Source: a virus. From it: a stretch of 64,000 nucleotides of DNA. The notes under the pieces are model-generated. The model was given only the letters and a program-made list of their open reading frames with translations, made no database searches and was not told where the DNA came from. The translations under genes were made by a program, and so were the position numbers. The first letter of the stretch is position 1; each line of letters opens with the position of its first letter. Below are positions 8,738 through 51,478 of this stretch, piece after piece. Where the stretch lies: positions 1 through 64,000 of the IMG/VR virus record IMGVR_UViG_3300031746_000004; one strand, given 5' to 3'.

Positions 8738-9259
8738 TTAAAATAAACTTTTTTGTTTTATTTCTTGTTTAGTTCCTGTATTTATTTCTTCAATATCAAA
8801 TCCTAATCGTTTAGCGTAATTTTTCATATTTAAAGATTTAGTTATTGTAGTTTTTACAAAAGTTTCGCTTGAATTAGACCCTGTAGTTTCTCTTCTTTTA
8901 CAACTATCTTCTAAAGTACAATAAAAATAATATAATTTTGTAGATACTTTTAATTTAGCAATAGCATCGAATACTTTAGTTTGATTTATTCTATCGCCTT
9001 CCATAATTATAGTATCGTAATTATTAATATTTTGGTTTATAAATTCTATAATTTGAGATTGAATTGTCATACTTAATACGTCCGTTCCACAACAACGTTT
9101 ATCAGAAGTGTAATCTCCTATCAAACAAATTTTATCTTGAGAAATAGTATGTTTAAACGGTTTCTCAATTAATTTTATAGGTTCTTTACAATAATTTTGT
9201 TTTACAAAAGTTGTTTTTCCTGAAGCACTTTGACCTATTATAATAATTATTTTATACAT
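8738..9259 (-). CDS. P-loop kinase, 5-hydroxymethyl-dU DNA kinase-like
   Basis: A 173-residue P-loop protein with Walker A GQSASGKT at residues 9-16, a central MEGDRI strand and a C-terminal part with RRETTG and a TKSLNMKNY helix. The MEGDR signature and its coupling to a transferase gene (13-nt overlap with 9247-10266) recall the kinases that phosphorylate 5-hydroxymethyluracil in phage DNA, the first step of thymidine hypermodification. Those reactions are known from Pseudomonas phage M6 and Salmonella phage ViI relatives. Here the role is inferred; another nucleotide kinase cannot be excluded. Confidence 0.7.
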   Translation of the reverse strand: MYKIIIIIGQSASGKTTFVKQNYCKEPIKLIEKPFKHTISQDKICLIGDYTSDKRCCGTDVLSMTIQSQIIEFINQNINNYDTIIMEGDRINQTKVFDAIAKLKVSTKLYYFYCTLEDSCKRRETTGSNSSETFVKTTITKSLNMKNYAKRLGFDIEEINTGTKQEIKQKSLF

Positions 9260-10266
9260 AAACTACCTTTTTTTGGTTCACATTTATTACATCTAATCTG
9301 ATATTTTTTAATATTAATACGAGATTGTAATTTATTATATTCAACTAAATTATCTTTATCAAAAATTTTTAATCTATTTTCTAATATAAAATTATCTATT
9401 GAAGTTATAGTATTAATTTTATATTGTTTATCTATTAATTTTAAATACATATCATCTAAATCCATATTTAAATAATAACTTCCTACTGCTATAGAATGAT
9501 AATTACATAATACTGTTTCTGTTTCGAACCAAGACATTTTGAAATCTTTTTTCCAAGGAACTTTACCCTCTACTAGCAATCCTATTTCTTCTGTCCATTC
9601 ATCTAATTTCATTGTTACAAATCTATAATTATCTTTAATCCATTTATGATTTTTTACATCTTGATTACATAATGCCAATATCGCTTCTCCTACTCCAGCT
9701 AATCGTTCTCTTACAAATAAATCTATACACCGTAAATCTATTTCGTCAGAAGTTTGAGTAATCAAATCAGAATATTTAAAAGCACTCCAAACTCCACCTA
9801 ATGGTAAATCTCTGATAGCTCGATTGATAGCTATAAATTTAGAAGCATCTTCGTCGGATTGAGTATTTTCTTCTATTATATATTTATCGAAATAATTACA
9901 TAAAGTTTTTTCTGGATATAAATATTTAATAAGTTTTTCTAATATTAAAGATAAACCTCCTGACCAATAAATTCCTCTTCTATCGCTACCTATTTTTATA
10001 TCTTTTAAATATTTATATTTCCATATTTCGTTTTTATAAGCTATTTCTAACGAAGGATAAGAAGTAAGTAATTCTAAAGTCCATGGTAAATTATAAACGT
10101 ACACATATAATAAACATCCCCATAAACGTTGTTCTTTATCGTAGTTATATTTATCGAAAAATTGTTTTAAAATAGGATATACAGGGTCTATGTCTCCGCT
10201 ATGAATAGAACAAACAGACATCGTAAAAAAATCTTTTTCTGTCATAGGATAAATTAATTTAGCCAT
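9247..10266 (-). CDS. Amino acid:DNA transferase-like protein
   Basis: This 339-residue helical protein has FIAINRAIRDLPLGGVWSAF followed by KYSDLI at about residues 144-169. That helical motif recalls the alpha-glutamyl/putrescinyl thymine pyrophosphorylase and amino acid:DNA transferase group, a glycosylase-like fold that replaces the pyrophosphate on phosphorylated hydroxymethyluracil with an amino acid or amine. A C-terminal C-x2-C and Cys (CNKC, then SLC) may bind zinc. It overlaps the P-loop kinase gene, and the PLP and radical SAM genes follow upstream. The family call is from memory of motif style and is not certain. Confidence 0.6.
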   Translation of the reverse strand: MAKLIYPMTEKDFFTMSVCSIHSGDIDPVYPILKQFFDKYNYDKEQRLWGCLLYVYVYNLPWTLELLTSYPSLEIAYKNEIWKYKYLKDIKIGSDRRGIYWSGGLSLILEKLIKYLYPEKTLCNYFDKYIIEENTQSDEDASKFIAINRAIRDLPLGGVWSAFKYSDLITQTSDEIDLRCIDLFVRERLAGVGEAILALCNQDVKNHKWIKDNYRFVTMKLDEWTEEIGLLVEGKVPWKKDFKMSWFETETVLCNYHSIAVGSYYLNMDLDDMYLKLIDKQYKINTITSIDNFILENRLKIFDKDNLVEYNKLQSRINIKKYQIRCNKCEPKKGSLCIK

Positions 10267-10399
10267 TTTTTATTATATGAGAAAGTTTCATATGTTCGCT
10301 ACTATTTTTACATAATTGGAGATTTTCGATTCTATCATCGTCTCTAATTTGATTGATATGATGAACTAATTCTTTACGACAATCTATACAACGATTCAT
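10259..10399 (-). CDS. Minimal HNH-type protein, 46 aa
   Basis: Contains CIDC, then HHINQIRDDDRIENLQL and EHMKLSH, the layout of an HNH homing-endonuclease active site reduced to its core. It sits between the transferase and PLP genes with its stop inside the next gene's start. At this length it may be a remnant rather than an active nuclease. Confidence 0.55.
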   Translation of the reverse strand: MNRCIDCRKELVHHINQIRDDDRIENLQLCKNSSEHMKLSHIIKNG

Positions 10400-10401
10400 T
10401 T

Positions 10402-11259
10402 CTAGCCACCTGCATTCCAAAATAAAACTTTATCACTTAAAATTTTTCTATTTTCTATTAACCACTTCCACGCTTTAGCATCGTATTGTAAATTACAAGG
10501 AAATTCTAAGGGATATATTGAACTTAAATCGTAATATTTCCAACCCATATCTATAAATTTTACTCTTTTTTGTTCTGTTGGAGTTAATTTAATAGGTTTT
10601 CTTTCTTGTATTAATATAGCATAAATAAAAATATTATTTATATTTTGTAAAAATCCTGTGCCTTGTAAAAGTCCTTGAAGTAATCCTCCAGTGGACATAC
10701 AAACTACAATTTCTTTAATATTAGTTAAATCTGTTTTTTTAACTTCTTGAGATATTCCTAATTTCATAAAACTTTTATCTCCGCCCAATGGAATCATATA
10801 TTGTACTTCATGACGATGTTTATACCAATGAATTTTAACCAAATATTTTCTATCATAAAAATGAATTTTAGCTCCATATTTTTCTATATCTTTTAATCTT
10901 AATTGAGATACTTCTCTAACTTCTTTAGGTAATTTTTCTATAGGTTTGCCCCAAATATGTAGTTCTAAATTTAAATATTTACAAATACTTGCTACACATT
11001 TTGCTGCTCTATAATCTCCTGCTTCTTCCCATCCTATAATAGTTAATCCTTGTTCTTTAATATTAGTTAATTCAGGAAGAAATCCTCTTGCCTTAGAAAA
11101 TCTTTCTACGTTACAACACATATCTTCTCTTTTCACAAAAATATTATATAGAGGATAATATTCTACAGGAGTATTTTCGTATAATTGAAAATTTTCGTAA
11201 GGAGTTATTACTCCTGCTTGTCTTCCGTAAGGATAGATATTTTCGACCAATCTTTCCAT
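10402..11259 (-). CDS. PLP-dependent enzyme, fold type II
   Basis: At 285 residues this resembles the tryptophan-synthase-beta/ACC-deaminase/threonine-synthase fold. VKREDM at residue 42, the likely cofactor lysine Lys56 in FSKARG, a PLGGDK loop near 158 and the phosphate-cradling STGG at 189-192 are all present. In thymidine-hypermodifying phages a PLP enzyme processes the amino acid attached to the base, so this is probably a tailoring step here. It overlaps the upstream radical SAM gene by 52 nt. The reaction is not determined by sequence. Confidence 0.75.
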   Translation of the reverse strand: MERLVENIYPYGRQAGVITPYENFQLYENTPVEYYPLYNIFVKREDMCCNVERFSKARGFLPELTNIKEQGLTIIGWEEAGDYRAAKCVASICKYLNLELHIWGKPIEKLPKEVREVSQLRLKDIEKYGAKIHFYDRKYLVKIHWYKHRHEVQYMIPLGGDKSFMKLGISQEVKKTDLTNIKEIVVCMSTGGLLQGLLQGTGFLQNINNIFIYAILIQERKPIKLTPTEQKRVKFIDMGWKYYDLSSIYPLEFPCNLQYDAKAWKWLIENRKILSDKVLFWNAGG

Positions 11260-12989
11260 TTTAATGCCTTTGCTTGTGGTAAAATAGAATTATTACAAGA
11301 TACTTTTCCTTTTTCTTCGCAATATAAACAATTACCATAGCAAGACTCTAAAGGTTCGAATCTTGACCCTCTTCTAACAAAAATAGGAACTCTTTTGCCG
11401 TGACATTGATGAGCAGTTGTAAAGGTTTCCCCTAAAGATTCTCCTGCAAGATTTATTTGTGAAGGTTTATATTCATAACATAATCCCATAGTCGCTTTAT
11501 CTTTCCAGATTGTAATAAATTTTTGATGTAATTTTTTTAACCATTCTAATCTAATTACATAATTAGTAGATATTTGATTACCTACATTTTGTCCAAATGT
11601 ATTATTAAAATATTCTAAACGTTCAGGATAATTAATAAATCTTTGTTGTAATTGTTGTTTAAAAGATTTATAATTTCCTATATCTTGTTCTACAAATTTA
11701 AAAATAAAATGTTTTACTCCTATAGATATACCTAATTCTATTAATTGTTCTAATTCTTCATAAGTTATTATGCCTGGAATTATAGGATTAACTTGCCAAC
11801 CAATATAAATTTTATCTGAAATATTTTTAATTTGAGAAAATATATCTTTTAAAGATGCTGCTCTCGGACTTAATCTTCGCCAAATTTCTTCGTTAGATGT
11901 ATTAATACTATATTGTAAATAAGAATATTTATTTTTTAGTAAATATTCTATTCCCCATTGAGGCACTATTTGTCTTGTTAAATAGAAAATAGGAAGTTGA
12001 TATTTTGTAAACACTTCGGATAAACGTTCGGTAATATGATAAATAGATTCTAAAGGATTAAAACATTCTGTAAAAGAAGAAATATAACCTATAGTAGCTG
12101 TTTTTAATTTATTTAAATCTTTATCTATTTTTTCTGGATAATAAGGGTCGACCGTTGTAGTGTGAGTTAATCTATATCCTCTCACTCCAAAATTAACGTA
12201 ACAATTATGAACTAAAATATTTTCAGCAAAAAAGTTTTCGGTGGTAGTTTGTAAATCATAAACTATTTGTTCTCCTTCTAATTTCTTAATCGATAATATT
12301 TTTACGCAATGAATAATTTCTAAATCCTCTATTTCTTTATTAAACATAGGATTATGAAGTTTCATAAAATCTCTTCTTTTAAAACGACTAGTTATATTTT
12401 GTAATTCAGTATAATCTAATAAAATATCTAATTCTATATCTAAATTATTAGCTTTGACCCAACCTCTATTTTCGGTATAAATTTTATGGTCTGAAGTAAC
12501 TTTAAGATTTTTTTTATTACTTAAAGTTATTTCTAGCAAATCTGATTTATAACCTCCCCATTTCCCTATAACTTTTGTAGGGATAGATATGTTATCCTTA
12601 AATCCCCAAATTAAATCTCCTACATTAATATCTTCTATCTTCTTAATACCTCCCGAAATTTTATTTTTACCATTTCTTATTACAGTTCTGATTGTAGTTC
12701 CTTCGCTTAAACAAAACACACAACCTACAGGACAAAATCCAGCATAAGGTCGAGTTAAAAATGCTTCTGAATAACAAGGTCGATTTCTTCTTCCTAAAGG
12801 TTCATGTTTATCTTTATACCAACCTCGTAATTGTGGAGATTTATTAGGTAATAATATATGAGGAATAGGTTTTTTATAAACTACATATTTACGAGTTTTA
12901 CCACCTTTGACTATAGCATAATTAACTTCTTCCGAAAGTCCTCTTAATTCGTTAATATTAGAAGGTTCTTTATAAGTAATATCTATCAT
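11208..12989 (-). CDS. Radical SAM enzyme (SPL-like) interrupted by an intein
   Basis: The 593-residue precursor contains a 170-residue intein (residues 93-262). The flanking exteins join to give CPVGCVFCYVNFG, a complete CX3CX2C cluster-binding motif, in a protein of about 423 residues similar to spore-photoproduct-lyase-like radical SAM enzymes. Such enzymes use a 4Fe-4S cluster and S-adenosylmethionine to start radical chemistry. A second cysteine group (CYGNCLYC) lies near the C-terminus and may bind another cluster. The ATG at 12989 follows GAAGGA by 6 nt and overlaps the upstream stop (ATGA). In the cassette it could rearrange the amino acid bound to the DNA base. Confidence 0.88.
   Translation of the reverse strand: MIDITYKEPSNINELRGLSEEVNYAIVKGGKTRKYVVYKKPIPHILLPNKSPQLRGWYKDKHEPLGRRNRPCYSEAFLTRPYAGFCPVGCVFCLSEGTTIRTVIRNGKNKISGGIKKIEDINVGDLIWGFKDNISIPTKVIGKWGGYKSDLLEITLSNKKNLKVTSDHKIYTENRGWVKANNLDIELDILLDYTELQNITSRFKRRDFMKLHNPMFNKEIEDLEIIHCVKILSIKKLEGEQIVYDLQTTTENFFAENILVHNCYVNFGVRGYRLTHTTTVDPYYPEKIDKDLNKLKTATIGYISSFTECFNPLESIYHITERLSEVFTKYQLPIFYLTRQIVPQWGIEYLLKNKYSYLQYSINTSNEEIWRRLSPRAASLKDIFSQIKNISDKIYIGWQVNPIIPGIITYEELEQLIELGISIGVKHFIFKFVEQDIGNYKSFKQQLQQRFINYPERLEYFNNTFGQNVGNQISTNYVIRLEWLKKLHQKFITIWKDKATMGLCYEYKPSQINLAGESLGETFTTAHQCHGKRVPIFVRRGSRFEPLESCYGNCLYCEEKGKVSCNNSILPQAKALKWKDWSKISILTEDKQE
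12204..12713 (-). mobile_element. Mini-intein in the radical SAM cluster motif
   Basis: The segment starts with Cys (CLSEGTTIRT, block A), has the block B motif VTSDHKIYT about 75 residues later and ends with block F/G (VYDLQ, ENFFAENILVHN) before a +1 Cys. These are the hallmarks of a class 1 intein. At 170 residues it lacks a full homing endonuclease; a stretch MKLHNPMFNKE near residue 117 looks like a NUMOD3 remnant of a lost HNH endonuclease. The intein's first Cys stands where the third cluster cysteine should be, and splicing replaces it with the +1 Cys. Confidence 0.9.
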
Positions 12990-14323
12990 AATATTCCTTC
13001 TTTTTTCCAACGAAATTCGTAAAGACGAGGAGAATATTCATAAATCAATAATCCTCTTTCGTCAACTTTTATTGGTTTTAATATTCCTTGATAATGAGAA
13101 TAAGGATTACAACCACTATTTAAATTATTCCAAGTATTTATAAACTCTCGAATATGACCTGTTTTTAATTGAGCATAATCTACTTGCCAATACTTTATAG
13201 AATCACCATAATATTTATATTCGGTAGCCCAATTATCCCACATTGTTTTTTCTATATCTTCAAATTTTAAATATTTATCTTTACCTTCACTAATCCAATA
13301 TCTTTTTCTTAATTCTTTTAAATGAAAAGTAATTTGTCCTTTACTAAAATTAGTAAGTTCTGGATTTATAGGATATTCGTCGGGGAGTCCGCAACAACAA
13401 CCTGAATAATTTAATTCTTTAAAATCAGGGTCGCTAATACTAATTCCTAATCCTAATTTTTTACAAGTTATATAAATACGTTTCATAAATATTTCTTTTA
13501 CATCTCGATTTAAACGTAAATAAGTACCTCTTTCGGTAGGAGAAAGTTTCTTATAAAAAGGTAAAATATCAAATCCTATTATATTACTTATATTTTTAAA
13601 TCTTTCTTTTAATAAAGGTGCTGCTCTTTCATCTATAGCAAAAAATTCCGTAGATATAGCTTTAGCTCCTGCTTGTTTAGCTTTAGTCAATAATTCTTCT
13701 AATCCTATATCTGTTATTCCTATAATAAAAGGTCGTAAACGTAATATAGTATAATATCCTAATTCCGACATTTTTTTAATTACCGATAATCGTTCCGAAG
13801 TAGAAGGAGTATTAGGTTCTATTTTTTTAGAAATTTCATCACTATTTGTAACTATAGAAAGTTGAAAAGCAAAATTTTTATACTTACTTCCTTCTTCAAA
13901 AATTTTCATATATTCTGGATTATCTAAAAACATCGATAAACCTTTAGTGGAAATTAAAGTGGGATAATGTAATTCTAATAAAGTTTTAATTATATCTAAT
14001 GTAATTTTATGTTTCTTTTCTATATAATCAAAACAATCTGTAAGACCTCCTATATGAAGAATAAATCGTTTAGAATAGAAATGTTGATAATAAGGATTAT
14101 CAATCTTTTTACCCATTATTAGTTCTCTAAAACTTTTAGGATTAACTAATTTTAATTCGGGTGATTTTTTACAGGCAGGATTTGTCGATGCAAATTGAGC
14201 AGCAAAACAATATTGACAACCGAAACTACATTTAGTAGTAGTATCGGCTGTTAAAGGAAGTGCACAATCAGTAAACTCTGAACTTATCCTACCAAATTTA
14301 TAATTATGTTTAAAATTTTCCAT
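12986..14323 (-). CDS. Radical SAM enzyme, second of the cassette
   Basis: A 445-residue protein with CSFGCQYC (Cys32, Cys36, Cys39), a CX3CX2C radical SAM cluster motif, then the barrel strands FILHIGGLTDCFD, LISTKG and FQLSIVTNSD typical of the SPL-like group. A CCCG cluster lies in the C-terminal third (about residue 305). It has no intein. It lies upstream of and overlaps the intein-bearing radical SAM gene, so the two are co-translated and may catalyse successive steps or act together. Substrate unknown; DNA-base tailoring is inferred from context. Confidence 0.85.
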   Translation of the reverse strand: MENFKHNYKFGRISSEFTDCALPLTADTTTKCSFGCQYCFAAQFASTNPACKKSPELKLVNPKSFRELIMGKKIDNPYYQHFYSKRFILHIGGLTDCFDYIEKKHKITLDIIKTLLELHYPTLISTKGLSMFLDNPEYMKIFEEGSKYKNFAFQLSIVTNSDEISKKIEPNTPSTSERLSVIKKMSELGYYTILRLRPFIIGITDIGLEELLTKAKQAGAKAISTEFFAIDERAAPLLKERFKNISNIIGFDILPFYKKLSPTERGTYLRLNRDVKEIFMKRIYITCKKLGLGISISDPDFKELNYSGCCCGLPDEYPINPELTNFSKGQITFHLKELRKRYWISEGKDKYLKFEDIEKTMWDNWATEYKYYGDSIKYWQVDYAQLKTGHIREFINTWNNLNSGCNPYSHYQGILKPIKVDERGLLIYEYSPRLYEFRWKKEGIL

Positions 14324-19726: not shown

Positions 19727-20011
19727 TTATTTAACTTTAGTTAATATTTTTCCTATATAATATTCTTGCCAATAATTTCGATTGTAATTTGCTCTTGTAT
19801 TACAAGGATTGCAAGTAGTTATTAAATTATCTTTTTTACAATCTATACAATAATGTTTTTCGAGAGTAAATCCTGTTTTGAAATTAGGATGATTTTTGGG
19901 ATTTTTATATTTTCCTTTTTGAGAACAGTGTCGACATTTTTTAGAATTATTTTGAATTAACTTTCCACAGTCTTTACATTTATTATTATCAGAATAATGA
20001 TATTTATTCAT
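19727..20011 (-). pseudogene. Internally deleted HNH homing endonuclease
   Basis: 94 residues keep two zinc-ribbon pieces (CKDCGKL, CRHCSQK), the KNPKNHPNFKTG linker and the extreme C-terminus DNLITTCNPCNTRANYNRN. CIDCKK is joined straight to DNLIT, so the segment with the first HNH cysteines and the HHID catalytic histidines is missing. The frame remains open. It overlaps the SpoVG-like gene by 8 nt. Likely catalytically dead, perhaps still DNA-binding. Confidence 0.75.
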
Positions 20012-20306
20012 TTCTAACTCTTTCTTTTAAAAAATTTGTATATGCAGATAATAAAAAATCCTCTATTTTATTTCCGATTGTTTTATTTATCGGATAAACA
20101 GAGGATATAATTTTTCCATTAGCCAAAGTAATACGAGGATATGAAATATAATATCCTCCTATTGGTTTGGTATAAATTCTTGCTTCGTTTATTCTTATTA
20201 AATTTTGGAAAGTAAAAGAAATATAGCAAACTAAACCTTTATCAGTTGGCTTTATAGGATAGAATGTTATTTCTGTTATTTCTTCTTTTTTTCTTCGATT
20301 AGTCAT
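20004..20306 (-). CDS. SpoVG-like nucleic-acid-binding protein
   Basis: 100 residues. The pattern ITEITFYPI, GLVCYISFTFQNLIRINEAR, GGYYISYPR, SSVYPINKTIGNKIEDFLL follows SpoVG (beta strands, a VHDIR-like element, P-K/R-P-like loop, HPI-N helix). SpoVG is a small site-specific DNA- and RNA-binding regulator in Bacillota. The gene lies directly downstream of the sigma factor gene and behind a promoter-like element shared with the ncRNA, so it may be a phage regulator. Confidence 0.72.
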   Translation of the reverse strand: MTNRRKKEEITEITFYPIKPTDKGLVCYISFTFQNLIRINEARIYTKPIGGYYISYPRITLANGKIISSVYPINKTIGNKIEDFLLSAYTNFLKERVRNE

Positions 20307-20314
20307 CTCTTCAT

Positions 20315-20357
20315 CCTTCTACTTATAAGTATACTAAAAAAACTCAAGAATTTAAGT
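20315..20357 (-). promoter_or_regulatory. Two-block promoter-like element, class B copy 1
   Basis: On the minus strand: ACTTAAAT, 16 nt, then TATACTTATAAGTAGAAGG. The identical two blocks with the same 16-nt spacing occur on the plus strand at 36503-36545. TATACT is a plausible -10 and the first block is placed like a -35. It overlaps the end of the sigma factor gene and would drive the SpoVG-like gene. Confidence 0.7.
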
Positions 20358-21054
20358 AGTATTTTAATTTTTTTTCTAATTCTTTACTTATTTGACTAAT
20401 TCTCGCACTACTAATTCCAAATCTTTTGGCTATTTCTACCTTTTTCAACCCTTTTTCTTTCAATAAGATACGAATATATTTTTTTTCTAAATCAGAACAA
20501 GAAATTATAAAATCTTTCATATCTATATTTTCTAAAAAATCTTCTTCTTTAGTATCTAAAATTGGTAATTCTTCTAATTCTCCTTCGTTATTTTCCTTAT
20601 TAAAAGGTTTATGCGTAATACTTTTTATAAAATCTTTAGTTAAAAACGAAGGAGTCCAATCGAACATACAACTATAAAGATAAGTATAAAAACTTTTAGA
20701 TATATCATAATTTTCTATAATTCTTAATATTTCTAAAATTAAATCTTGTTCTACGTCCATATAATCACATAAATTATAACTTCTAAGATTAAAAAATCCT
20801 TTAATACATTCGCATTTATCACAAGTTTTACATTCCGTTTTATCTTCGATTATACATTGACGACAAAATTTACATTTATGATAGAGAGACAATGGATACC
20901 ATTTTCTTTCGTAAATATATTTTGCTTTCTTTCTAATCAAAGGTCTAAAATATACAAATATTTCTTCTAATAATTTCTTATCTTTTATTTCTTTATATAG
21001 TTTTATTTTATTTTCTATATCTACTCTATTTTCTTCGTTAATTTTATTATTCAT
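20344..21054 (-). CDS. Phage sigma factor with Cys-rich insertion
   Basis: 236 residues. Residues 34-47 (YFRPLIRKKAKYIY) and 98-130 (DYMDVEQDLILEILRIIENY and onward) fit sigma-70 region 2; residues 197-230 (GLKKVEIAKRFGISSARISQ) are the region 4 helix-turn-helix. Between the two parts of region 2 is an insert with seven cysteines (61, 64, 67, 75, 78, 81, 83), likely zinc or iron-sulfur binding. It would redirect host RNA polymerase to phage promoters; the class A or B elements in this window are candidate targets. Confidence 0.82.
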   Translation of the reverse strand: MNNKINEENRVDIENKIKLYKEIKDKKLLEEIFVYFRPLIRKKAKYIYERKWYPLSLYHKCKFCRQCIIEDKTECKTCDKCECIKGFFNLRSYNLCDYMDVEQDLILEILRIIENYDISKSFYTYLYSCMFDWTPSFLTKDFIKSITHKPFNKENNEGELEELPILDTKEEDFLENIDMKDFIISCSDLEKKYIRILLKEKGLKKVEIAKRFGISSARISQISKELEKKLKYYLNS

Positions 21055-35130: not shown

Positions 35131-35742
35131 AAGCAAATAAATCTTATACAATAAACTGTTATAACTCAACCACTTACAAAGCCAACAAAATAAAAATCAT
35201 AATAAACCTAACTTGTTATAAATACATAACTTATAATAATTGAGTAGTAAAAATAATCTATACCTTAATAAAACCTTACAACAGGGATGTTTTGAACATA
35301 AATAAAAAACTATGAAGGTTATGTGCTATGATACATAAAACAACAAGATTGAATAAATCTATAATACGGAATAAAATAAAAACTAATCCTATTACAATAA
35401 ATAATTGAAGTAGTTAAGGAATATGAAATTGAAACTTTTAAAAAAGTTTATTCAACCAAATGTGCAAATAATTTTAACTATAATAAGTTAAATCTAATGA
35501 ATTATACCTAACCAATTGAAGTATAACAAGATAAGTTATAGGCAGGGTTCATTTTAGCGGATTACAACAGGACACCGAACGATACCCCTACTATACCTTT
35601 CTTTCGATTTTCTACCTTTTTCAACCTCTTTAACTTCAACACATTAAAAATTAAATCCACTCTAAAAATCGTAAAAACACAAATTGGTCGAAATATGCCC
35701 ATAACGGACATTAATATATATAATATCGGAATAGGATTATTG

Positions 35743-35783
35743 TTATCTTTTTTAGTTATAATCTTATCCTTTTTAGTTATAAT
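35743..35783. repeat. Tandem 21-bp direct repeat
   Basis: TTATCTTTTTTAGTTATAAT (35743-35762) is repeated as TTATCCTTTTTAGTTATAAT (35764-35783), one difference over 20 nt, period 21. Two adjacent protein-binding sites on the same helix face would fit. Confidence 0.85.
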
Positions 35784-35840
35784 TAACTTATTACCTTTAT
35801 TTAGGATTAATTAGCGTTTTTTTTCGGTCTTTTTATAACT

Positions 35841-36195
35841 TCTACCCTCTTTTACCTTATTGATATTATTATAGTTATATTAATACTAAATTAGTATTTA
35901 TCAGTATTTTATTAGTATTTCAAATCTACCTCTTCTACCTTATTGAAAACAAATAACTTACGATTTCTACCTAATTTCTACCTTTTTAGAAGGTAGAAGA
36001 TACTAGTTAATCTTAATACCTATATATATCTACCTATTTCTACTATTCGTTAAATAAACAAGATACGAAAAAATTACAGATAAATGTAATTTTTAAGTAC
36101 TAAAGTAGGAAGAAGGAGAAAGTAGTCGTGCTGAAGTTGCCCCCTACCCCCGACTTATTATTAGCTAAGATACTATATTTCTACCCTAATCTACC
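35841..36195. repeat. Iteron-like TCTACC cluster
   Basis: TCTACC occurs at 35841, 35925, 35934, 35966, 35977, 36029, 36180 and 36190, and once inverted (GGTAGA at 35992). A further copy is at 35611. Several are followed by TTATTG, and three pairs are spaced 9-11 bp. A 9-bp inverted repeat TTCTACCTT/AAGGTAGAA is centred near 35987. Such clusters are typical of initiator- or regulator-binding arrays. Confidence 0.65.
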
Positions 36196-36261
36196 TTATT
36201 GTAAATAAAGAAGTTAGAAAAAGAATACAATGGTCGAATATATATAACGAGAATACGGTAA

Positions 36262-36502: not shown

Positions 36503-36545
36503 ACTTAAATAATCGGTATTTTCGAGTATACTTATAAGTAGAAGG
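36503..36545 (+). promoter_or_regulatory. Two-block promoter-like element, class B copy 2
   Basis: ACTTAAAT, 16 nt, TATACTTATAAGTAGAAGG, matching 20315-20357 on the opposite strand in both blocks and in the spacing. It would start a plus-strand transcript at about 36540, at the beginning of the candidate ncRNA. Confidence 0.7.
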
Positions 36546-37086
36546 TAAAAATGTTCTTTAAAATATATAGACCAATTGAATTGAGTAGAAAGCAGCATAA
36601 TAACCGATAAAACTCGGTAAAGATACTATTAATAACAAACGTCTATCTGAATGATAGAAACGCAGTTAAAAGAAACTTATAAATAGGCTGCACAAACAAA
36701 ACTTTAATTCATGGTAAATTGTTGAAGAATATTATGATAACGATAATAGTTTGTATAGTTTGGTTATTTTTTATGTGGCTTTTTGGGCTAACTAAAAATA
36801 TACCAAGAATTTGATTTATTCTCTTTCTGATTTCTTGAGTTGAGATTGGCTAATAGTAAGCAATCGAAAAACAAATTAAGGATTCAGATTCAGAAAGAGT
36901 TATTATTGCTTGGAGGGCGTTAAGCTCTGCTTGATAGCTCTCCTTTGCTAGCTTCATACTGTCGATTGACAGATAAATGGGTAGCTACTGATTATCGGGG
37001 GCTACCCGACTAAAAATTAATTAAGGCTAAAGATAAAGTTATGGACTGGGAAATCCTGGTCGATTTTGTCTTTAGCCTTTTTTATT
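36540..37086 (+). ncRNA. Candidate large structured non-coding RNA
   Basis: About 545 nt between the class B element and a terminator, with no gene-sized frame. Many helices can be drawn: CCGA/TCGG (36604-36617), TCTATC/GATAGA (36642-36658), a long-range perfect 10-bp stem CTCTTTCTGA/TCAGAAAGAG (36821-36899) enclosing GATTG/CAATC, a strong hairpin GGAGGGC/GCTCTCC continuing into TTAAGC/GCTTGA (36912-36943), CTGTC/GACAG (36959-36972), GGGTAGC/GCTACCC (36979-37007) and the terminator stem. Length and ornateness recall the phage RNAs ROOL and GOLLD, but I cannot confirm a family. A 19-codon frame at 36551-36610 with an AGAAGG site is the only possible peptide. Confidence 0.55.
37023..37085 (+). 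terminator. Rho-independent terminator after the ncRNA
   Basis: Perfect 11-bp stem AAGGCTAAAGA (37023-37033) with TCTTTAGCCTT (37069-37079), followed by TTTTATTT. The loop contains a nested hairpin GACTGGG/CCTGGTC. It separates the ncRNA from the structural operon. Confidence 0.8.
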
Positions 37087-37212
37087 TATTAGCAAGGGAT
37101 TCGTCAAGTGTAGTAAAAACTGAAACGTCAACTTCGCTAATAATAATTATCACGATGGTGAGAAATACTTCATAGAAAGTTAAAAAGTAATGCTCACCCC
37201 ATAGGAGAATAA

Positions 37213-37605
37213 ATGATATTAGATTTATATATAACTTATAAAAAAATAGAAGAAATAGATATAATTCAAGACCTCATAATTAAAAAAAGAGATTCTGTAA
37301 CTTATGACTGTTTTTTCTATGACGAAAATAATACTTTAGTTGACATTACAGGAGCCACATTATTTTTTACAATAAAAGAAAAATCATCTGATACAGATGA
37401 AACTGCAATTCTTAAAAAAACAATTACTTCTTTAACAAATTCTACAGATGGTGAAGCAAAAATCGAATTAAACCCAACTGATACTAATTTAACAGTTGGA
37501 AATTATATTTATGATATTCAGATTAAACTTTCTACTGGAGAAATATATACTTGTTTAGAAGGAAATATTTGTGTTAAACAAGATATAACAATCAGAACAA
37601 GTTAA
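37213..37605 (+). CDS. Baseplate/tail-fibre N-terminal domain protein (BppU-like)
   Basis: 130 residues of beta-sandwich character: KKRDSVTYDCFFYDENNTLV, TGATLFFTIKEK, then GEAKIELNPTDTNLTVGNY and YDIQIKLSTGE. This matches the N-terminal immunoglobulin-like domain of phage BppU-type upper baseplate proteins. A second copy of the domain is at 56863-57189. First gene of the plus arm, with AGGAG before the ATG. No receptor-binding part is attached. Confidence 0.65.
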   Translation: MILDLYITYKKIEEIDIIQDLIIKKRDSVTYDCFFYDENNTLVDITGATLFFTIKEKSSDTDETAILKKTITSLTNSTDGEAKIELNPTDTNLTVGNYIYDIQIKLSTGEIYTCLEGNICVKQDITIRTS

Positions 37606-37606
37606 A

Positions 37607-38350
37607 ATGACTAGAGAATATTATTTAAAACATAGAAAAGAAATTTTAAAATATCATAAAAAATATTTTATAAAAAATAAATGTATGGATTGTGGAAAAA
37701 AAGTTAGTACAGAACATACTAAAAGATGTAGAAAATGTTATATAATTTTTTCTAAAGGAAAAAATGCGACCAATTATAAAAATGGTCGTTCTTTGATAGA
37801 AAAATTTTGTATTGATTGTGGTAAAAAAATAGATTGGAAGTCTAAAAATAATTATTGTAAAAATCATGTTGGTAAATATGTATCGCCAAAAGCAGAAAAC
37901 AGTTATAATTATATAGATGGAAGATGTTCTAAAAAATATTATTGTATAATTTGTGGAAAAGAAATAAGCCTTTCTTCTGGTTTTTATGGTAATAAAAAAT
38001 GTAGTTCATGTCATGCTAAAACAAAGACTCCTACTTTTGGAAAATTGCCTTCTCATGGAAAAAGAATTCATTATAAAAATAATTGCTTTCGTTCTACTTG
38101 GGAATCAAATTTTGCTAAATGGTTAGATAAAAATAATATAAAATGGTTATATGAATCAAAAACATTTAAATTAGATAATGGAACTTATACACCAGATTTT
38201 TATTTACCAGAATTTAATTTATGGATAGAAGTAAAAGGCTATTGGCGTGATAATGCTAAAGTTAAATTTGAATTATTTAAACAAAAATACTGCGGCGAAA
38301 GAATAAAAATTTTAGGAAGACAAGAATTAAAAATATTAAAAATAATTTAA
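37607..38350 (+). CDS. Homing endonuclease, PD-(D/E)XK type with zinc ribbons
   Basis: 247 residues. Three zinc ribbons (CMDCGKK, CIDCGKK, CIICGKE), linked by KNATNYKNGRS- and NSYNYIDGR-type NUMOD-like segments, precede a nuclease domain: FRSTWESNFAKWL, then YTPDFYLPEFNLWIEVKGYW, a PD-(D/E)XK core (D, E-x-K). Its ATG is 2 nt after the preceding stop, and it has no ribosome binding site of its own. The ribbons resemble those of the HNH endonucleases in this window, with a different nuclease. Confidence 0.82.
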   Translation: MTREYYLKHRKEILKYHKKYFIKNKCMDCGKKVSTEHTKRCRKCYIIFSKGKNATNYKNGRSLIEKFCIDCGKKIDWKSKNNYCKNHVGKYVSPKAENSYNYIDGRCSKKYYCIICGKEISLSSGFYGNKKCSSCHAKTKTPTFGKLPSHGKRIHYKNNCFRSTWESNFAKWLDKNNIKWLYESKTFKLDNGTYTPDFYLPEFNLWIEVKGYWRDNAKVKFELFKQKYCGERIKILGRQELKILKII

Positions 38351-38365
38351 GGAGGAAATTAAAAC

Positions 38366-38611
38366 ATGATTGATAAATCATTAAGTTTTGGAATTCAAAA
38401 TTATTTTTTTGTTACTCAAGACGAAACAGACCCAGTTTATGTTTATGTTGGTTATCAAAATAAAAAAGGTTCTACATTACTTGGTCGTTACAAAAAAGAC
38501 GATACTGAAGGTTTATACTATATCGCTGTCGGAGCATTTGCTGGAATTTGGGCAGGTAGAGTAGGATATAGTTACGCTTTACCAAGTTTGCTTGTTGAAC
38601 CAGCGATTTAA
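38366..38611 (+). CDS. Small structural protein, 81 aa
   Basis: Mixed chain with TDPVYVYVGYQNKKGSTLLG and GLYYIAVGAFAGIW, with AGGAGG before the ATG. Located in the fibre region, so probably a virion or assembly protein. Not recognised. Confidence 0.6.
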   Translation: MIDKSLSFGIQNYFFVTQDETDPVYVYVGYQNKKGSTLLGRYKKDDTEGLYYIAVGAFAGIWAGRVGYSYALPSLLVEPAI

Positions 38612-38612
38612 T

Positions 38613-38900
38613 ATGAAACATTATTGCATCGATTGTAAAAAAGAATCAATCCGTAAAAGAGATAACTATATCTGTCAAAATTGTTCGATGATTGAAGAAG
38701 AACATTTGATAGTAATAGGTACTAATTTACATATTCATCATATTGATTACGATAAAGAGAATTGTAACGAGAATAATTTAATTACTTTATGTAATTCATG
38801 TAATGTAAGAGCAAATTTTAACAGAGATTATTGGAAAAATATTTTTCAAAATAAAATTGCCCAACTAAATAAGGAGGCAACCAAAAATGAGTCAATATAA
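38613..38900 (+). CDS. Short HNH homing endonuclease
   Basis: 95 residues: one CIDCKK knuckle joined directly to RKRDNYICQNC, then IHHIDYDKENCNENNLITL and CNSCNVRANFNRDYW. It keeps the full HNH core but lacks the long zinc-ribbon array of its relatives. It starts 2 nt after the previous stop, and its 3' end contains the AAGGAGG site of the next fibre gene, which it overlaps by 14 nt. Confidence 0.8.
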   Translation: MKHYCIDCKKESIRKRDNYICQNCSMIEEEHLIVIGTNLHIHHIDYDKENCNENNLITLCNSCNVRANFNRDYWKNIFQNKIAQLNKEATKNESI

Positions 38901-43734: not shown

Positions 43735-44277
43735 ATGAATAAATGTATCGATTGTAAAAAAGTATTAAAAGATTCGAGAAATAAAAGATGTCAAAAATGT
43801 TATTTAAAAATTATGAAAGGTAAAAATCATCCGAATTATAAACATGGAGAAGCATGTCAAAATAAGAAACATTTTTGTAAAGATTGTGGAAAAAAAGTAT
43901 GTGATTATATTGTAATAAGATGTCGTTCTTGTTCCAAAAAAGGAAAATTAAACAATCTTTTTGGTAAACATCATACATTAAAAAGTCGTAAAAAAGCTAG
44001 TTTATCTAAAGGCGGTACAGGAATTCCTTATGAATTTAATAAATATCCTGAAAAATTCTTTAAAATTAGATACTGGATTTTAAAAAGAGATAATCATACT
44101 TGCCAAAAATGTAATAAGTATGGTAATGAAATTCATCATATAGATTACGATAAAGAAAATAATAAAGAAGATAATTTATTGGTTTTATGCCATAAATGTA
44201 ATATTAGGGCAAATTACAATCGTTCTTATTGGATAAATTTTTATCAGAATAAATTAAGAATTTCTTCGGAGAAATAA
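43735..44277 (+). CDS. HNH homing endonuclease with NUMOD3 motif
   Basis: 180 residues: zinc ribbons CIDCKKV and CKDCGKK, a NUMOD3-type FGKHHTLKSRKKASLSKGG, and an HNH core KRDNHTCQKC, IHHIDYDKENNKEDNLLVL, CHKCNIRANYNRSYW. It starts 2 nt after the glycosyltransferase stop and ends 3 nt before the next ATG. Confidence 0.88.
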   Translation: MNKCIDCKKVLKDSRNKRCQKCYLKIMKGKNHPNYKHGEACQNKKHFCKDCGKKVCDYIVIRCRSCSKKGKLNNLFGKHHTLKSRKKASLSKGGTGIPYEFNKYPEKFFKIRYWILKRDNHTCQKCNKYGNEIHHIDYDKENNKEDNLLVLCHKCNIRANYNRSYWINFYQNKLRISSEK

Positions 44278-46338: not shown

Positions 46339-48000
46339 ATGGCTAATTCGGGATTAGGAGACGGACTTTTTTCAGCTTTTATTAATTGGCTTTACACAAC
46401 TGGTGATATTTCAGTTCCACCTGATTTTCATAGTCGCTGCGAAAAAATTAAAGGAATGATAGATAACGATATTTCGGGGGTTATAAATACAGTTTTAGAT
46501 TATTCTATTTCTTCTGCTTCTAATGCACAATATAAAATAGAATGTAGCGATAATAATTTACAAAAATTATTAAATACTTGGTTACAAAAAATTAATTTAG
46601 AACTAAAGGGAGTCCCCACAGGATTACAAGAACTCTCAAAAGAATATTTTAAAGAAAGATGGCAGGGTTCTTCTTTATGTTTATTAAGAATTAAAGGTTG
46701 GGAAACTTTAACTATAGATAAAAATACAATAGAAGTACCTACTATTATGTGGTATGTTAATGGTTCTTCAGTATATGTAAAAAGAGATGCTGATAGTAAT
46801 TATAAATTAGGTTCAGATATTTATTATTTAGATAAAGAACATAAAGTAAAAGTTCCAGAAGGAAATAAAGAAGAGATAATAATGCAAAAACCATTTGATA
46901 GGTGGTTTGACCAATATGCTACTCCTTATTTAATTCGTAAAGGAGTATATAAAAATTGGTTAACAATGAAAGTTTTACAAGAAAAATCTGACGAAGTTAT
47001 TTCTAAAATTTTACCTTACTTATTTATAATTAAAAAAGGAACAGAAAGATTATTTATAGAAGGCGATATTAGTTACGACGACCCAGATTTAAAAAAAGTA
47101 GTAGATGGATTAAAAGAACAATTAGAATCTTATAAAAATCAAAAAAGTAAAACTCCTACAAATGCTACTACATTTGATACTGAATATGACCATTTAATTC
47201 CCGATTTAAGAAAAATTTTGACAGAAGACCTTTATAAACAGGGTTTTCGTTTAATTTTATCAGGATTGGGATTTGTTGACATGTTAGAAATTGCTTCTTC
47301 AAGACAGGAAAGTAGAATAAATCCTAAACCATTTGTAGCAGAAATAAATAATGGTGTAGAAGGTTTTAAGTCTATGTTACTAGATATAGTTTATAAAATT
47401 ATAGAACGAAATAAAGAAAAACATCCTAAATTATTTAGTAACAATAATAAATTATTAATAGTAAATTCTCCTCTAAAAATAAATGTAGAACAAATTTTAG
47501 ACCAATTAAGAAGTGGTTATATTTATGGAGCAAGTTCTATTACTACTTATCAAGAAGTATTAGGATTAGACCCTGAAACAGAAAAAGAAAGACGACAAAA
47601 AGAATTAGACGAAGGATTAGAAGATTTATTTTATCCGCATTTAATTCAGAATAGAGAAGATATACCTGATAGAATGATTCCTTCGAAACCTAAGACAACT
47701 AAAAAAGAAACAGAAAAACAAAAAGAAAAAGAAACACTTCCAGAACATATGCAAGAAGCAGTTACTCAAGAAGATTTAGAAACAGCTCCTTATAAAAATT
47801 TAGATGAATTACCTAAATATATAAAGAAAATGACAAAACATTGCCAAGAAGTTTTTATGGCAACATTTAATTCTGTTTATAAAGATACAGGAGACGAAGG
47901 TAAAAGTTTTGCTATAGCCAATTCTTCTGCTCGTAGATGTATGAAGAAGCAAGGTTATAATTATGATAAAGAAACTAAAACTTGGAAAAAGAAAGAATAA
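46339..48000 (+). CDS. Portal protein with C-terminal ChaB-like domain
   Basis: 553 residues. The body (about 1-430) fits phage portals: DNDISGVINTVLDY, ATPYLIRKGVYKNWL, LILSGLGFVDMLE and ASSITTYQEVLGLDPETEKE are typical stem/crown pieces. The end (about 485-550), NLDELPKYIKKMTKHCQEVF and FNSVYKDTGDEGKSFAIANS, is a ChaB-like domain, often fused to phage portal or capsid-protease proteins. Twelve copies would form the vertex through which DNA passes. Directly followed by an HNH endonuclease gene. Confidence 0.85.
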   Translation: MANSGLGDGLFSAFINWLYTTGDISVPPDFHSRCEKIKGMIDNDISGVINTVLDYSISSASNAQYKIECSDNNLQKLLNTWLQKINLELKGVPTGLQELSKEYFKERWQGSSLCLLRIKGWETLTIDKNTIEVPTIMWYVNGSSVYVKRDADSNYKLGSDIYYLDKEHKVKVPEGNKEEIIMQKPFDRWFDQYATPYLIRKGVYKNWLTMKVLQEKSDEVISKILPYLFIIKKGTERLFIEGDISYDDPDLKKVVDGLKEQLESYKNQKSKTPTNATTFDTEYDHLIPDLRKILTEDLYKQGFRLILSGLGFVDMLEIASSRQESRINPKPFVAEINNGVEGFKSMLLDIVYKIIERNKEKHPKLFSNNNKLLIVNSPLKINVEQILDQLRSGYIYGASSITTYQEVLGLDPETEKERRQKELDEGLEDLFYPHLIQNREDIPDRMIPSKPKTTKKETEKQKEKETLPEHMQEAVTQEDLETAPYKNLDELPKYIKKMTKHCQEVFMATFNSVYKDTGDEGKSFAIANSSARRCMKKQGYNYDKETKTWKKKE

Positions 48001-48635
48001 TGAAACATAACAAATGTATAGATTGTAACAAAAATTTGCATCCACTATCAAAATATCAAGGTTCTATACGATGCAAGTCTTGTGCAAGAAAATATCAATA
48101 TGCTACAAGACCAGAAACAAATCCATTGTTTGATAAAAAAGGCAAAAATCATTATCAATGGAAGGGTGGCAAAGATTCGAGAAAATGTTATTGTATAGAT
48201 TGTAATAAAGAATTAAACGAAAGTGCACATTATAGAAAAGATAAAAGATGCAAATCTTGTTATTATAAAACATTAAAAGGTGAAGGCAATCCGATGTTTG
48301 GAATTCATCGATTTGGAGAAAAAGCTCCTACATGGATAGATGGTCGTTCTTTTGAACCTTATACAGAAGAATTTAATTCCGAACTTAAAGAATTAATTCG
48401 TGATAGAGACAATCATGAGTGCCAGAATTGTAGTATGACCGAAGAAGAGCATTTGATAGTTAGAGGCAGAGTTTTAGATATTCATCATATCGATTACGAT
48501 AAAAAGAATTGTTCAAAAGAAAATTTGATTACTTTATGTAATTTTTGTAATATACGAGCCAATTTTAATAGAGATTATTGGCAAGAACTATTTATGAATA
48601 AAATGGAGGAATTATGCAAAACGATAAAAAATTAA
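48000..48635 (+). CDS. HNH homing endonuclease with zinc ribbons
   Basis: 211 residues. Zinc ribbons CIDCNKN and CIDCNKE are joined by KNHYQWKGGKD and a NUMOD3-like GEGNPMFGIHRFG; the HNH core is RDNHECQNCS, IHHIDYDKKNCSKENLITL, CNFCNIRANFNRDYW. The ATG overlaps the portal stop (TAATG), and the last codons contain the GGAGG site of the protease/scaffold gene, which it overlaps by 22 nt. Confidence 0.9.
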   Translation: MKHNKCIDCNKNLHPLSKYQGSIRCKSCARKYQYATRPETNPLFDKKGKNHYQWKGGKDSRKCYCIDCNKELNESAHYRKDKRCKSCYYKTLKGEGNPMFGIHRFGEKAPTWIDGRSFEPYTEEFNSELKELIRDRDNHECQNCSMTEEEHLIVRGRVLDIHHIDYDKKNCSKENLITLCNFCNIRANFNRDYWQELFMNKMEELCKTIKN

Positions 48636-50569: not shown

Positions 50570-51478
50570 ATGAGTGATAAAAGAGTGGATTTAGAAATAG
50601 CAAGATTAATCGGGCAACCTATTAATCCAAATCTGCCTTCGCCATTGGCGTTGACAGAGGCTTGTAACGTCGAAGCAGCAGCTCCTGGAGAAGAAATTAA
50701 AGCATTTACAGGTGATACTAGTGATATAGATGACATTTATACTGCAGACGCAGATGGTAAATTAACGATTCATAAATGTACTCCAGTTACACCCGCTGCA
50801 GTTACTTGGGTTGGTTTACAGTCATTGTTAGAGTATGTATTAATTAATGATGTACTTCCTAGCGAAGACCAGGGTGCATTAGCAAGAAAGAAAGCTGGAA
50901 TTACTAGAGCTATGGATAAACAAGAAGTAAAATTAGTTTGTGATGCCGCGTTGGGAGTAGTTTCTCAGAGAGTAACAGCAGAAGCTGGTAAAGATGTTCT
51001 TCATCGTATTATACAATTAAAGCAAAAAGTTGGAGTTTATGGTGATAATTTTGTACTTTTAGTTGGCACAGACATTGCAGATGCAATCGATACTTATGAC
51101 ATTGATTATGTTACTACACATGAATATAAAATAGGTATTAAAGATGTATTAGCTAATTTGGGAATTACAGTTATAAAAATAGTTGGCGAAGTTAATGGTG
51201 CAGTAATTTTAGGTGCTAAGAAAGGTATTTTAGTAGCTAGAAATTCTATGTTAGCTGAAGGTAGACCTATTTATTTTCTTAGACGTTCAATTAGTCCTGA
51301 AATTGCAGCTCAGATGGGAATCGAAAGTGGCGTGAGATTAATTTCCGTTGCTCAAGTTCCTACAATTATAGATACTAAGAATACATTAGGTTATGGATGT
51401 TTTGGTTATGAAAGTTTTATGTTAGTTATAACAAACTATAGAGCAATTGCTACTATGGTAGACTTATTAGCTGCATAA
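50570..51478 (+). CDS. Major capsid protein
   Basis: 302 residues directly after the protease/scaffold gene. Contains KKAGITRAMDKQEVKLVCDA, QKVGVYGDNFVLLVGTDIAD and GIKDVLANLGITVIKIVGEV, an A/P-domain pattern typical of HK97-fold capsid proteins. A purine-rich leader with AGGAG precedes the ATG, and a strong hairpin follows the gene. No N-terminal delta domain, consistent with a separate scaffold. Confidence 0.82.
   Translation: MSDKRVDLEIARLIGQPINPNLPSPLALTEACNVEAAAPGEEIKAFTGDTSDIDDIYTADADGKLTIHKCTPVTPAAVTWVGLQSLLEYVLINDVLPSEDQGALARKKAGITRAMDKQEVKLVCDAALGVVSQRVTAEAGKDVLHRIIQLKQKVGVYGDNFVLLVGTDIADAIDTYDIDYVTTHEYKIGIKDVLANLGITVIKIVGEVNGAVILGAKKGILVARNSMLAEGRPIYFLRRSISPEIAAQMGIESGVRLISVAQVPTIIDTKNTLGYGCFGYESFMLVITNYRAIATMVDLLAA

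Follow-up and report, generated by a model that had tools for sequence, protein, structure and literature searches.

What, other than protein, might be encoded at the single divergent junction of a phage genome, and what could such a product do there? The window analysed here, a stretch of 64,000 nucleotides, comes from IMG/VR record IMGVR_UViG_3300031746_000004 (105,284 bp; G000, the phage under study, known solely through metagenome data). Comparison with a near-identical relative (G002; 109,585 bp, 97% identical) points to ends that overlap by ~127 bp, and hence to a circular map of ~105 kb. Listed open reading frames (ORFs) point to the left as far as 35067 and to the right from 37213 onward. 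No other stretch without genes comes near the 2.1 kb that separate the two arms, at whose rightward end lies the candidate RNA considered here (36540-37085). A sequence-only reading of this DNA had proposed a large structured RNA in ~545 nt that lack a gene and are bracketed by a promoter-like element and a strong terminator, and both parts of that proposal stand. There is no ORF of at least 60 aa in 36540-37086, the promoter element before it is one that recurs in the genome, a hairpin with a T run closes it, and folding, conservation and covariation support the RNA itself. We judge it very probable that a real structured RNA, whose transcription we infer, is encoded at 36540-37085.

Folding of the predicted plus-strand transcript (~546 nt, from promoter to terminator) gives -155.8 kcal/mol for 36540-37088, against -109.5 +/- 5.6 for dinucleotide shuffles (z -8.2), whereas the minus strand of the same region reaches z -3.7. 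Without its terminator the RNA retains z -5.4; the middle segment (the region of stem A, described below) gives z -3.4, and the 5'-most 276 nt by themselves reach z -2.3. A control of equal length taken from upstream gives z -0.3, so the DNA there is not RNA-like. A portal-protein scan of viral contigs yielded relatives at 49-61% identity; in four of them, G010, G011, G012 and G014, a homologous RNA occupies the junction, likewise oriented and placed ahead of the virion arm, with fold z of -7.1, -4.7, -5.5 and -3.9 and predicted lengths of ~500, ~260, ~300 and ~490 nt, respectively (260-550 nt when G000 is included). The G002 RNA is identical to that of G000 except for one inserted nucleotide in a hairpin loop. 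It is the 3' part of the RNA that is conserved, with G010 and G012 84% identical along a 75-nt segment of it (E about 5e-14), and the 5' part that varies.

The variable 5' domain (36554-36674, plus strand, as are all the elements that follow) may be closed by pairing of TTCTTT (36554-36559) with AAAGAA (36669-36674), as judged by inspection, which also finds equivalent arms in G010 and G014. These two relatives have the 5' motif TGTTCTTTTNACATAAATTTNAAGGTC in common; because the closing arms are conserved but do not covary, their pairing is weakly supported. Further downstream, stem A (36821-36899) joins CTCTTTCTGA (36821-36830) to TCAGAAAGAG (36890-36899), a perfect 10-bp stem exactly as it had been drawn before. 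Since such a stem occurs somewhere in 30% of shuffled 547-nt sequences, stem A alone is weak evidence; it becomes strong evidence because relatives keep it (10 of 10 pairs in three lineages) with compensatory double changes at two pairs. The next hairpin (36912-36943, ~14 bp), also pointed out earlier, is present in the minimum-free-energy fold but was not found when looked for in the homologues, and appears to be lineage-specific. Hairpin B (36959-36972), CTGTC-GATT-GACAG in G000 and CCTGG...CCAGG in relatives, has changed on both sides in four of its five pairs with pairing kept, and hairpin C (36979-37007; GGGTAGCTACTGATTATCGGGGGCTACCC), which contains a conserved A/G mismatch, has two compensatory pairs. 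A degenerate pattern of hairpin C finds four matches in 2.9 million IMG/VR viral contigs, all of them in this group. The RNA ends in an intrinsic terminator (37023-37083), a long hairpin followed by a T run; a scan recovered the inner hairpin, and the hairpin with its T run is clear. Three compensatory pairs separate the terminator hairpins of G000 and G011, a level reached by 66 of 500 shuffles and, with two sequences compared, suggestive only.

Covariation in related phages had been named as a check on the RNA, and it was assessed in a helix-by-helix alignment of stem A and hairpins B and C from three genomes (G000, G010, G012). All 27 pairs are formed throughout (81/81 cells, 100%), and 8 of the 27 show compensatory double changes, a level reached by 0 of 500 shuffles and lower in all controls in which the partners were slid; with three sequences, and arms picked by eye, this support is good, not overwhelming. 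A plain MAFFT alignment of the RNAs was dropped, since large indels misaligned the helices; its place was taken by a curated alignment of the helices, GAAA standing in for the loops, so the pair counts depend on the arms that we selected. These results bear on the reading that there is no functional RNA and that the region acts purely as regulatory DNA or is a small coding gene that has been misread. Such a reading can appeal to a strongly hydrophobic 26-aa ORF within the RNA (36737-36814; MITIIVCIVWLFFMWLFGLTKNIPRI), to a 19-aa ORF that follows AGAAGG at 36540, and to the fact that the RNA is known here from sequence alone. The strand bias of folding, the compensatory changes in three helices and the changed terminator pairs argue against it, and of the small ORFs present (20-35 aa) none was found conserved in the homologues; the 26-aa ORF was not seen in them and could be due to chance. 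We consider this reading very unlikely.

The RNA looks like a previously undescribed, covariation-supported family that starts and stops with its own signals. An exact DNA pattern of the 3' part matched only the near-identical G002, the neighbouring amidoligase gene led to no relatives, and two matches to a hairpin-B DNA pattern (L098, L101), both inside coding sequence, were rejected as chance. Rfam 15 has no family at gathering threshold in the window or in the rest of the genome, and there is no real match to the RNA or to two of its homologues in 50,697 phage records. A covariance model built from the curated alignment (R1) fails, owing to large inserts, to put stem A where it belongs in G000 and G012, so that its matches rest on hairpins B and C; R1 gave no convincing match in distant relatives (portal ~35% identity), which have a divergent junction of the same kind. 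In one of them (G021/L048) a promoter with TATACTTATAGTGAAGG stands before a different transcript. At two such distant junctions (L048 1600-2230 and L055 4300-4950) we noted a TTGACA-N17-TATACT promoter, a 41-aa ORF and a terminator, followed, by inspection, by four tRNA-like genes in a row.

The promoter of the RNA (36505-36532, plus strand) reads TTAAAT-N16-TATACT, then TATAAGTAGAAGG. Its -35 match is weak, and in a scan for the sigma-70 consensus it is not conspicuous (15 sites, 15.3 expected); it is recognised by repetition, as an element before a spoVG-like gene and as a motif before the homologous RNAs. The 65-bp element has a minus-strand counterpart, 79% identical, at 20315-20379, directly ahead of the spoVG-like gene (20004-20306; gene and element together 20004-20379), whose 100-aa product has a Pfam SpoVG domain (PF04026). 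The motif GTATACTTATWAGTA found before the RNA is exact in G010 and has one mismatch in G014, and the homologous RNAs are preceded by TTGTGA-N16-TATACT in G010 and TTGTAA-N16-TATACT in G011. Three units of G010 are preceded by the motif: the RNA, a SpoVG-like gene (here with one mismatch) and an HSDR_N-like gene; a further match at 51432 was discarded because it lies inside a coding gene. The promoter is common to RNA and spoVG-like gene in two lineages, G000/G002 and G010. In G000, the spoVG-like gene lies directly behind a weakly sigma-70-like gene (20344-21054), whose 3' end the promoter element overlaps.

On the other side of the promoter, 35540-36200 resembles regulatory or origin-like DNA, with a GGCAGGGTTCATTTTAGC box near 35543, a GCCCCCTACCCCC box at 36139-36151 that is conserved in G010, G012 and G014, and repeated TCTACCTT-like motifs; the first of these boxes (GGCAGGGTTC..TTTTAGC) is also recognisable in G001. 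This stretch is a candidate replication origin, and plasmid primer RNAs and T4 origin transcripts offer models for a transcript that would prime or open an origin among the repeats upstream of it. Such a role is favoured by the conserved boxes and the repeats, which lie at the one place where the gene arms diverge, but the conserved structure is the 3' end of the RNA, adjoining the terminator, and transcription runs away from the repeats; a replication-linked RNA seems to us decidedly unlikely. Elsewhere in the window, many related zinc-ribbon/HNH-like genes are, by inspection, scattered between virion genes (37607-38350, 38592-38900, 43735-44277, 47982-48635), with relatives that recur across G001, and an amino acid:DNA transferase-like gene (below cut-off), a DNA photolyase-like gene and radical SAM genes lie together at 9247-14323, possibly as a DNA hypermodification cluster.

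The sequence-only reading had overlooked that the RNA lies directly before the virion operon, a position that opens a leader or antitermination reading. The first rightward virion-arm gene (37213-37605, plus strand) is tail-associated (matches to PHROG 3304, tail, and PHROG 1084, no function), and inspection suggests a leader hairpin before it (GGTGAG/CTCACC, 37157-37198). Between terminator and gene lies a second small structured element (37086-37146, plus strand), AAGGGATTCGTCAAG...AACGTCAACTT closed by TTATTAGC/GCTAATAA, which is 88% identical in G011 and possibly mobile, since unrelated sequence takes its place in the otherwise near-identical G002. The first virion-arm start codon follows the end of the T run after ~23 nt (G010), 35 nt (G012) or 27 nt (G014), hardly enough for an ordinary promoter of its own plus a ribosome site; the distances in G000 (127 nt) and G011 (~287 nt) would accommodate other promoters. 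In G011 (L085 5400-5550 and 2280-2490), a second tail-type gene is preceded by another copy of the terminator module and of a leader hairpin (TACCTGCTCTAGGTAGCC...GCAGGTA), which looks as if RNA 3' ends and tail cassettes shuffle together.

Our analysis suggests that the RNA is most likely also the terminated leader of the rightward virion operon, giving both free RNA and read-through, a reading to which we assign close to an even chance; the leader mechanism by itself is graded about half as firmly as the existence of the structured RNA. Polymerase would start at the promoter (36527), make a folded 0.55-kb transcript and mostly stop at the terminator (37083), so that a discrete RNA is set free; once the late genes are called for, it would pass the terminator into the gene at 37213 and beyond. 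Helices A, B and C, before the terminator, would be the part recognised by a protein or by polymerase, and the co-regulated SpoVG-like protein is a candidate recogniser; transcription, read-through and any partner protein are steps that we infer. The leader is favoured by the fold z-score, the covariation, the conserved position before the virion arm, the short gaps and the promoter common with the spoVG-like gene. Counted against it are the room for promoters in G000 and G011, the dissimilar structure of the lambda leader and the lack of an antiterminator helix: among five homologues, no pairing that would compete with the terminator rose above chance (all p at least 0.08), so classical attenuation is unlikely, which leaves processive antitermination or partial read-through. 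The Pfam scan, which covered a minority of the genome's proteins, showed no gene for an antitermination protein. A short phage-specific late promoter overlapping the T run is possible.

The same features could instead belong to an abundant phage RNA that stands free and acts in trans, by itself or together with the SpoVG-like protein, and that resembles the ~800-nt RNA of ICP1, GOLLD or ROOL in role, not in sequence, with the virion genes served by their own late promoter; we entertain this tentatively, as the chief contender. The RNA's own promoter and terminator, and a fold that is still significant without the terminator, speak for it, and the promoter in common with an RNA-binding-type protein gene fits it too. 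It also has parallels in the conserved 3' and variable 5' domains reported for GOLLD (PMC12286853) and in ICP1, whose most abundant transcript is a ~800-nt noncoding RNA in a gene-less 1-kb gap (gp139-gp140; PMC7567579). Less easily accommodated are the very short terminator-to-gene distances in three relatives, the wide variation in length and the version in G014, which has the promoter motif in common with G010 but lacks hairpins B and C; in their place, in the 3' half of the RNA, is a 38-aa ORF (L088 4104-4220; MEKYELTKLDKFDVAIVKIQKEIDALKARLEKIKISVK).

SpoVG is an RNA-binding protein that in Listeria binds the noncoding RNA Rli31 (PMC4959528), which makes a functional coupling of the RNA with the SpoVG-like protein plausible. 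A more specific proposal, that the two are made from copies of one promoter and form a ribonucleoprotein controlling read-through into the virion operon, is in our estimation unlikely; if true, it would be a new RNA-based late-gene switch. An undescribed, covariation-supported family joins the few large structured phage RNAs known, and here the clues to function, a promoter common with an RNA-binding-type protein gene and a position before the virion operon, are unusually concrete. For the role of large phage RNAs, they suggest directly testable ideas (late-gene leader, SpoVG binding).

The RNA had been likened to ROOL and GOLLD, a resemblance that holds for size and phage setting and breaks down over covariance models and tRNAs. 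The Rfam model search proposed at that time came back empty at E<=10 in the genome and ten relatives: ROOL (RF03087) matched none of the 11 genomes, with no positive-control genome matched, and GOLLD (RF02032) none of the 11, in a run without a positive-control genome. Permissive Rfam scans of the RNA region and four homologous RNAs gave matches far under gathering scores, with neither ROOL nor GOLLD among them, and no tRNA genes were found in the window or in the rest of the genome. At the sensitivity used, the RNA is not ROOL or GOLLD. ROOL is an octameric RNA-only cage, frequently but not universally found near tRNA islands. Our RNA resembles it in length (~550-580 nt), in being phage-encoded and in its intricate predicted fold, and differs in having no covariance-model match, no tRNA island and homologues only half as long. 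Lengths down to ~260-300 nt among these homologues argue against a cage being obligatory, and that the RNA is a divergent ROOL or GOLLD member, or some other cage-forming RNA, strikes us as extremely improbable. From GOLLD it differs in lacking a covariance-model match, in being shorter and in having no tRNA neighbours; the likeness, a universally conserved 3' region with a variable 5' region (PMC12286853), recurs here in other sequence and is one of layout only.

The ICP1 RNA, too, is large and lies in a gap without genes next to a gene cluster, in a lytic phage that has no tRNAs (PMC7567579). At ~800 nt, and adjoining lysis genes, it is set apart from ours on these grounds and not by direct sequence comparison. 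The late leader region of lambda consists of the pR' promoter, a terminated leader RNA (tR') and then the late virion operon, and promoter, predicted terminated RNA and virion operon follow one another in that order here. The leader proposed here is longer, strongly structured and covarying, whereas to our knowledge the lambda leader RNA needs no conserved structure, and no Q-like protein was identified in the partial Pfam scan. Q antitermination in lambda is described in passages of PMC6606751 and PMC7171158, and a passage of PMC9378689 presents the put RNA of phage HK022 as a structured transcript that, while still nascent, acts on the polymerase making it. To the extent of that description, the RNA proposed here would be akin to put, as a structured phage RNA acting on its own transcription; put acts on early transcription, whereas the conserved helices here lie just before the terminator.
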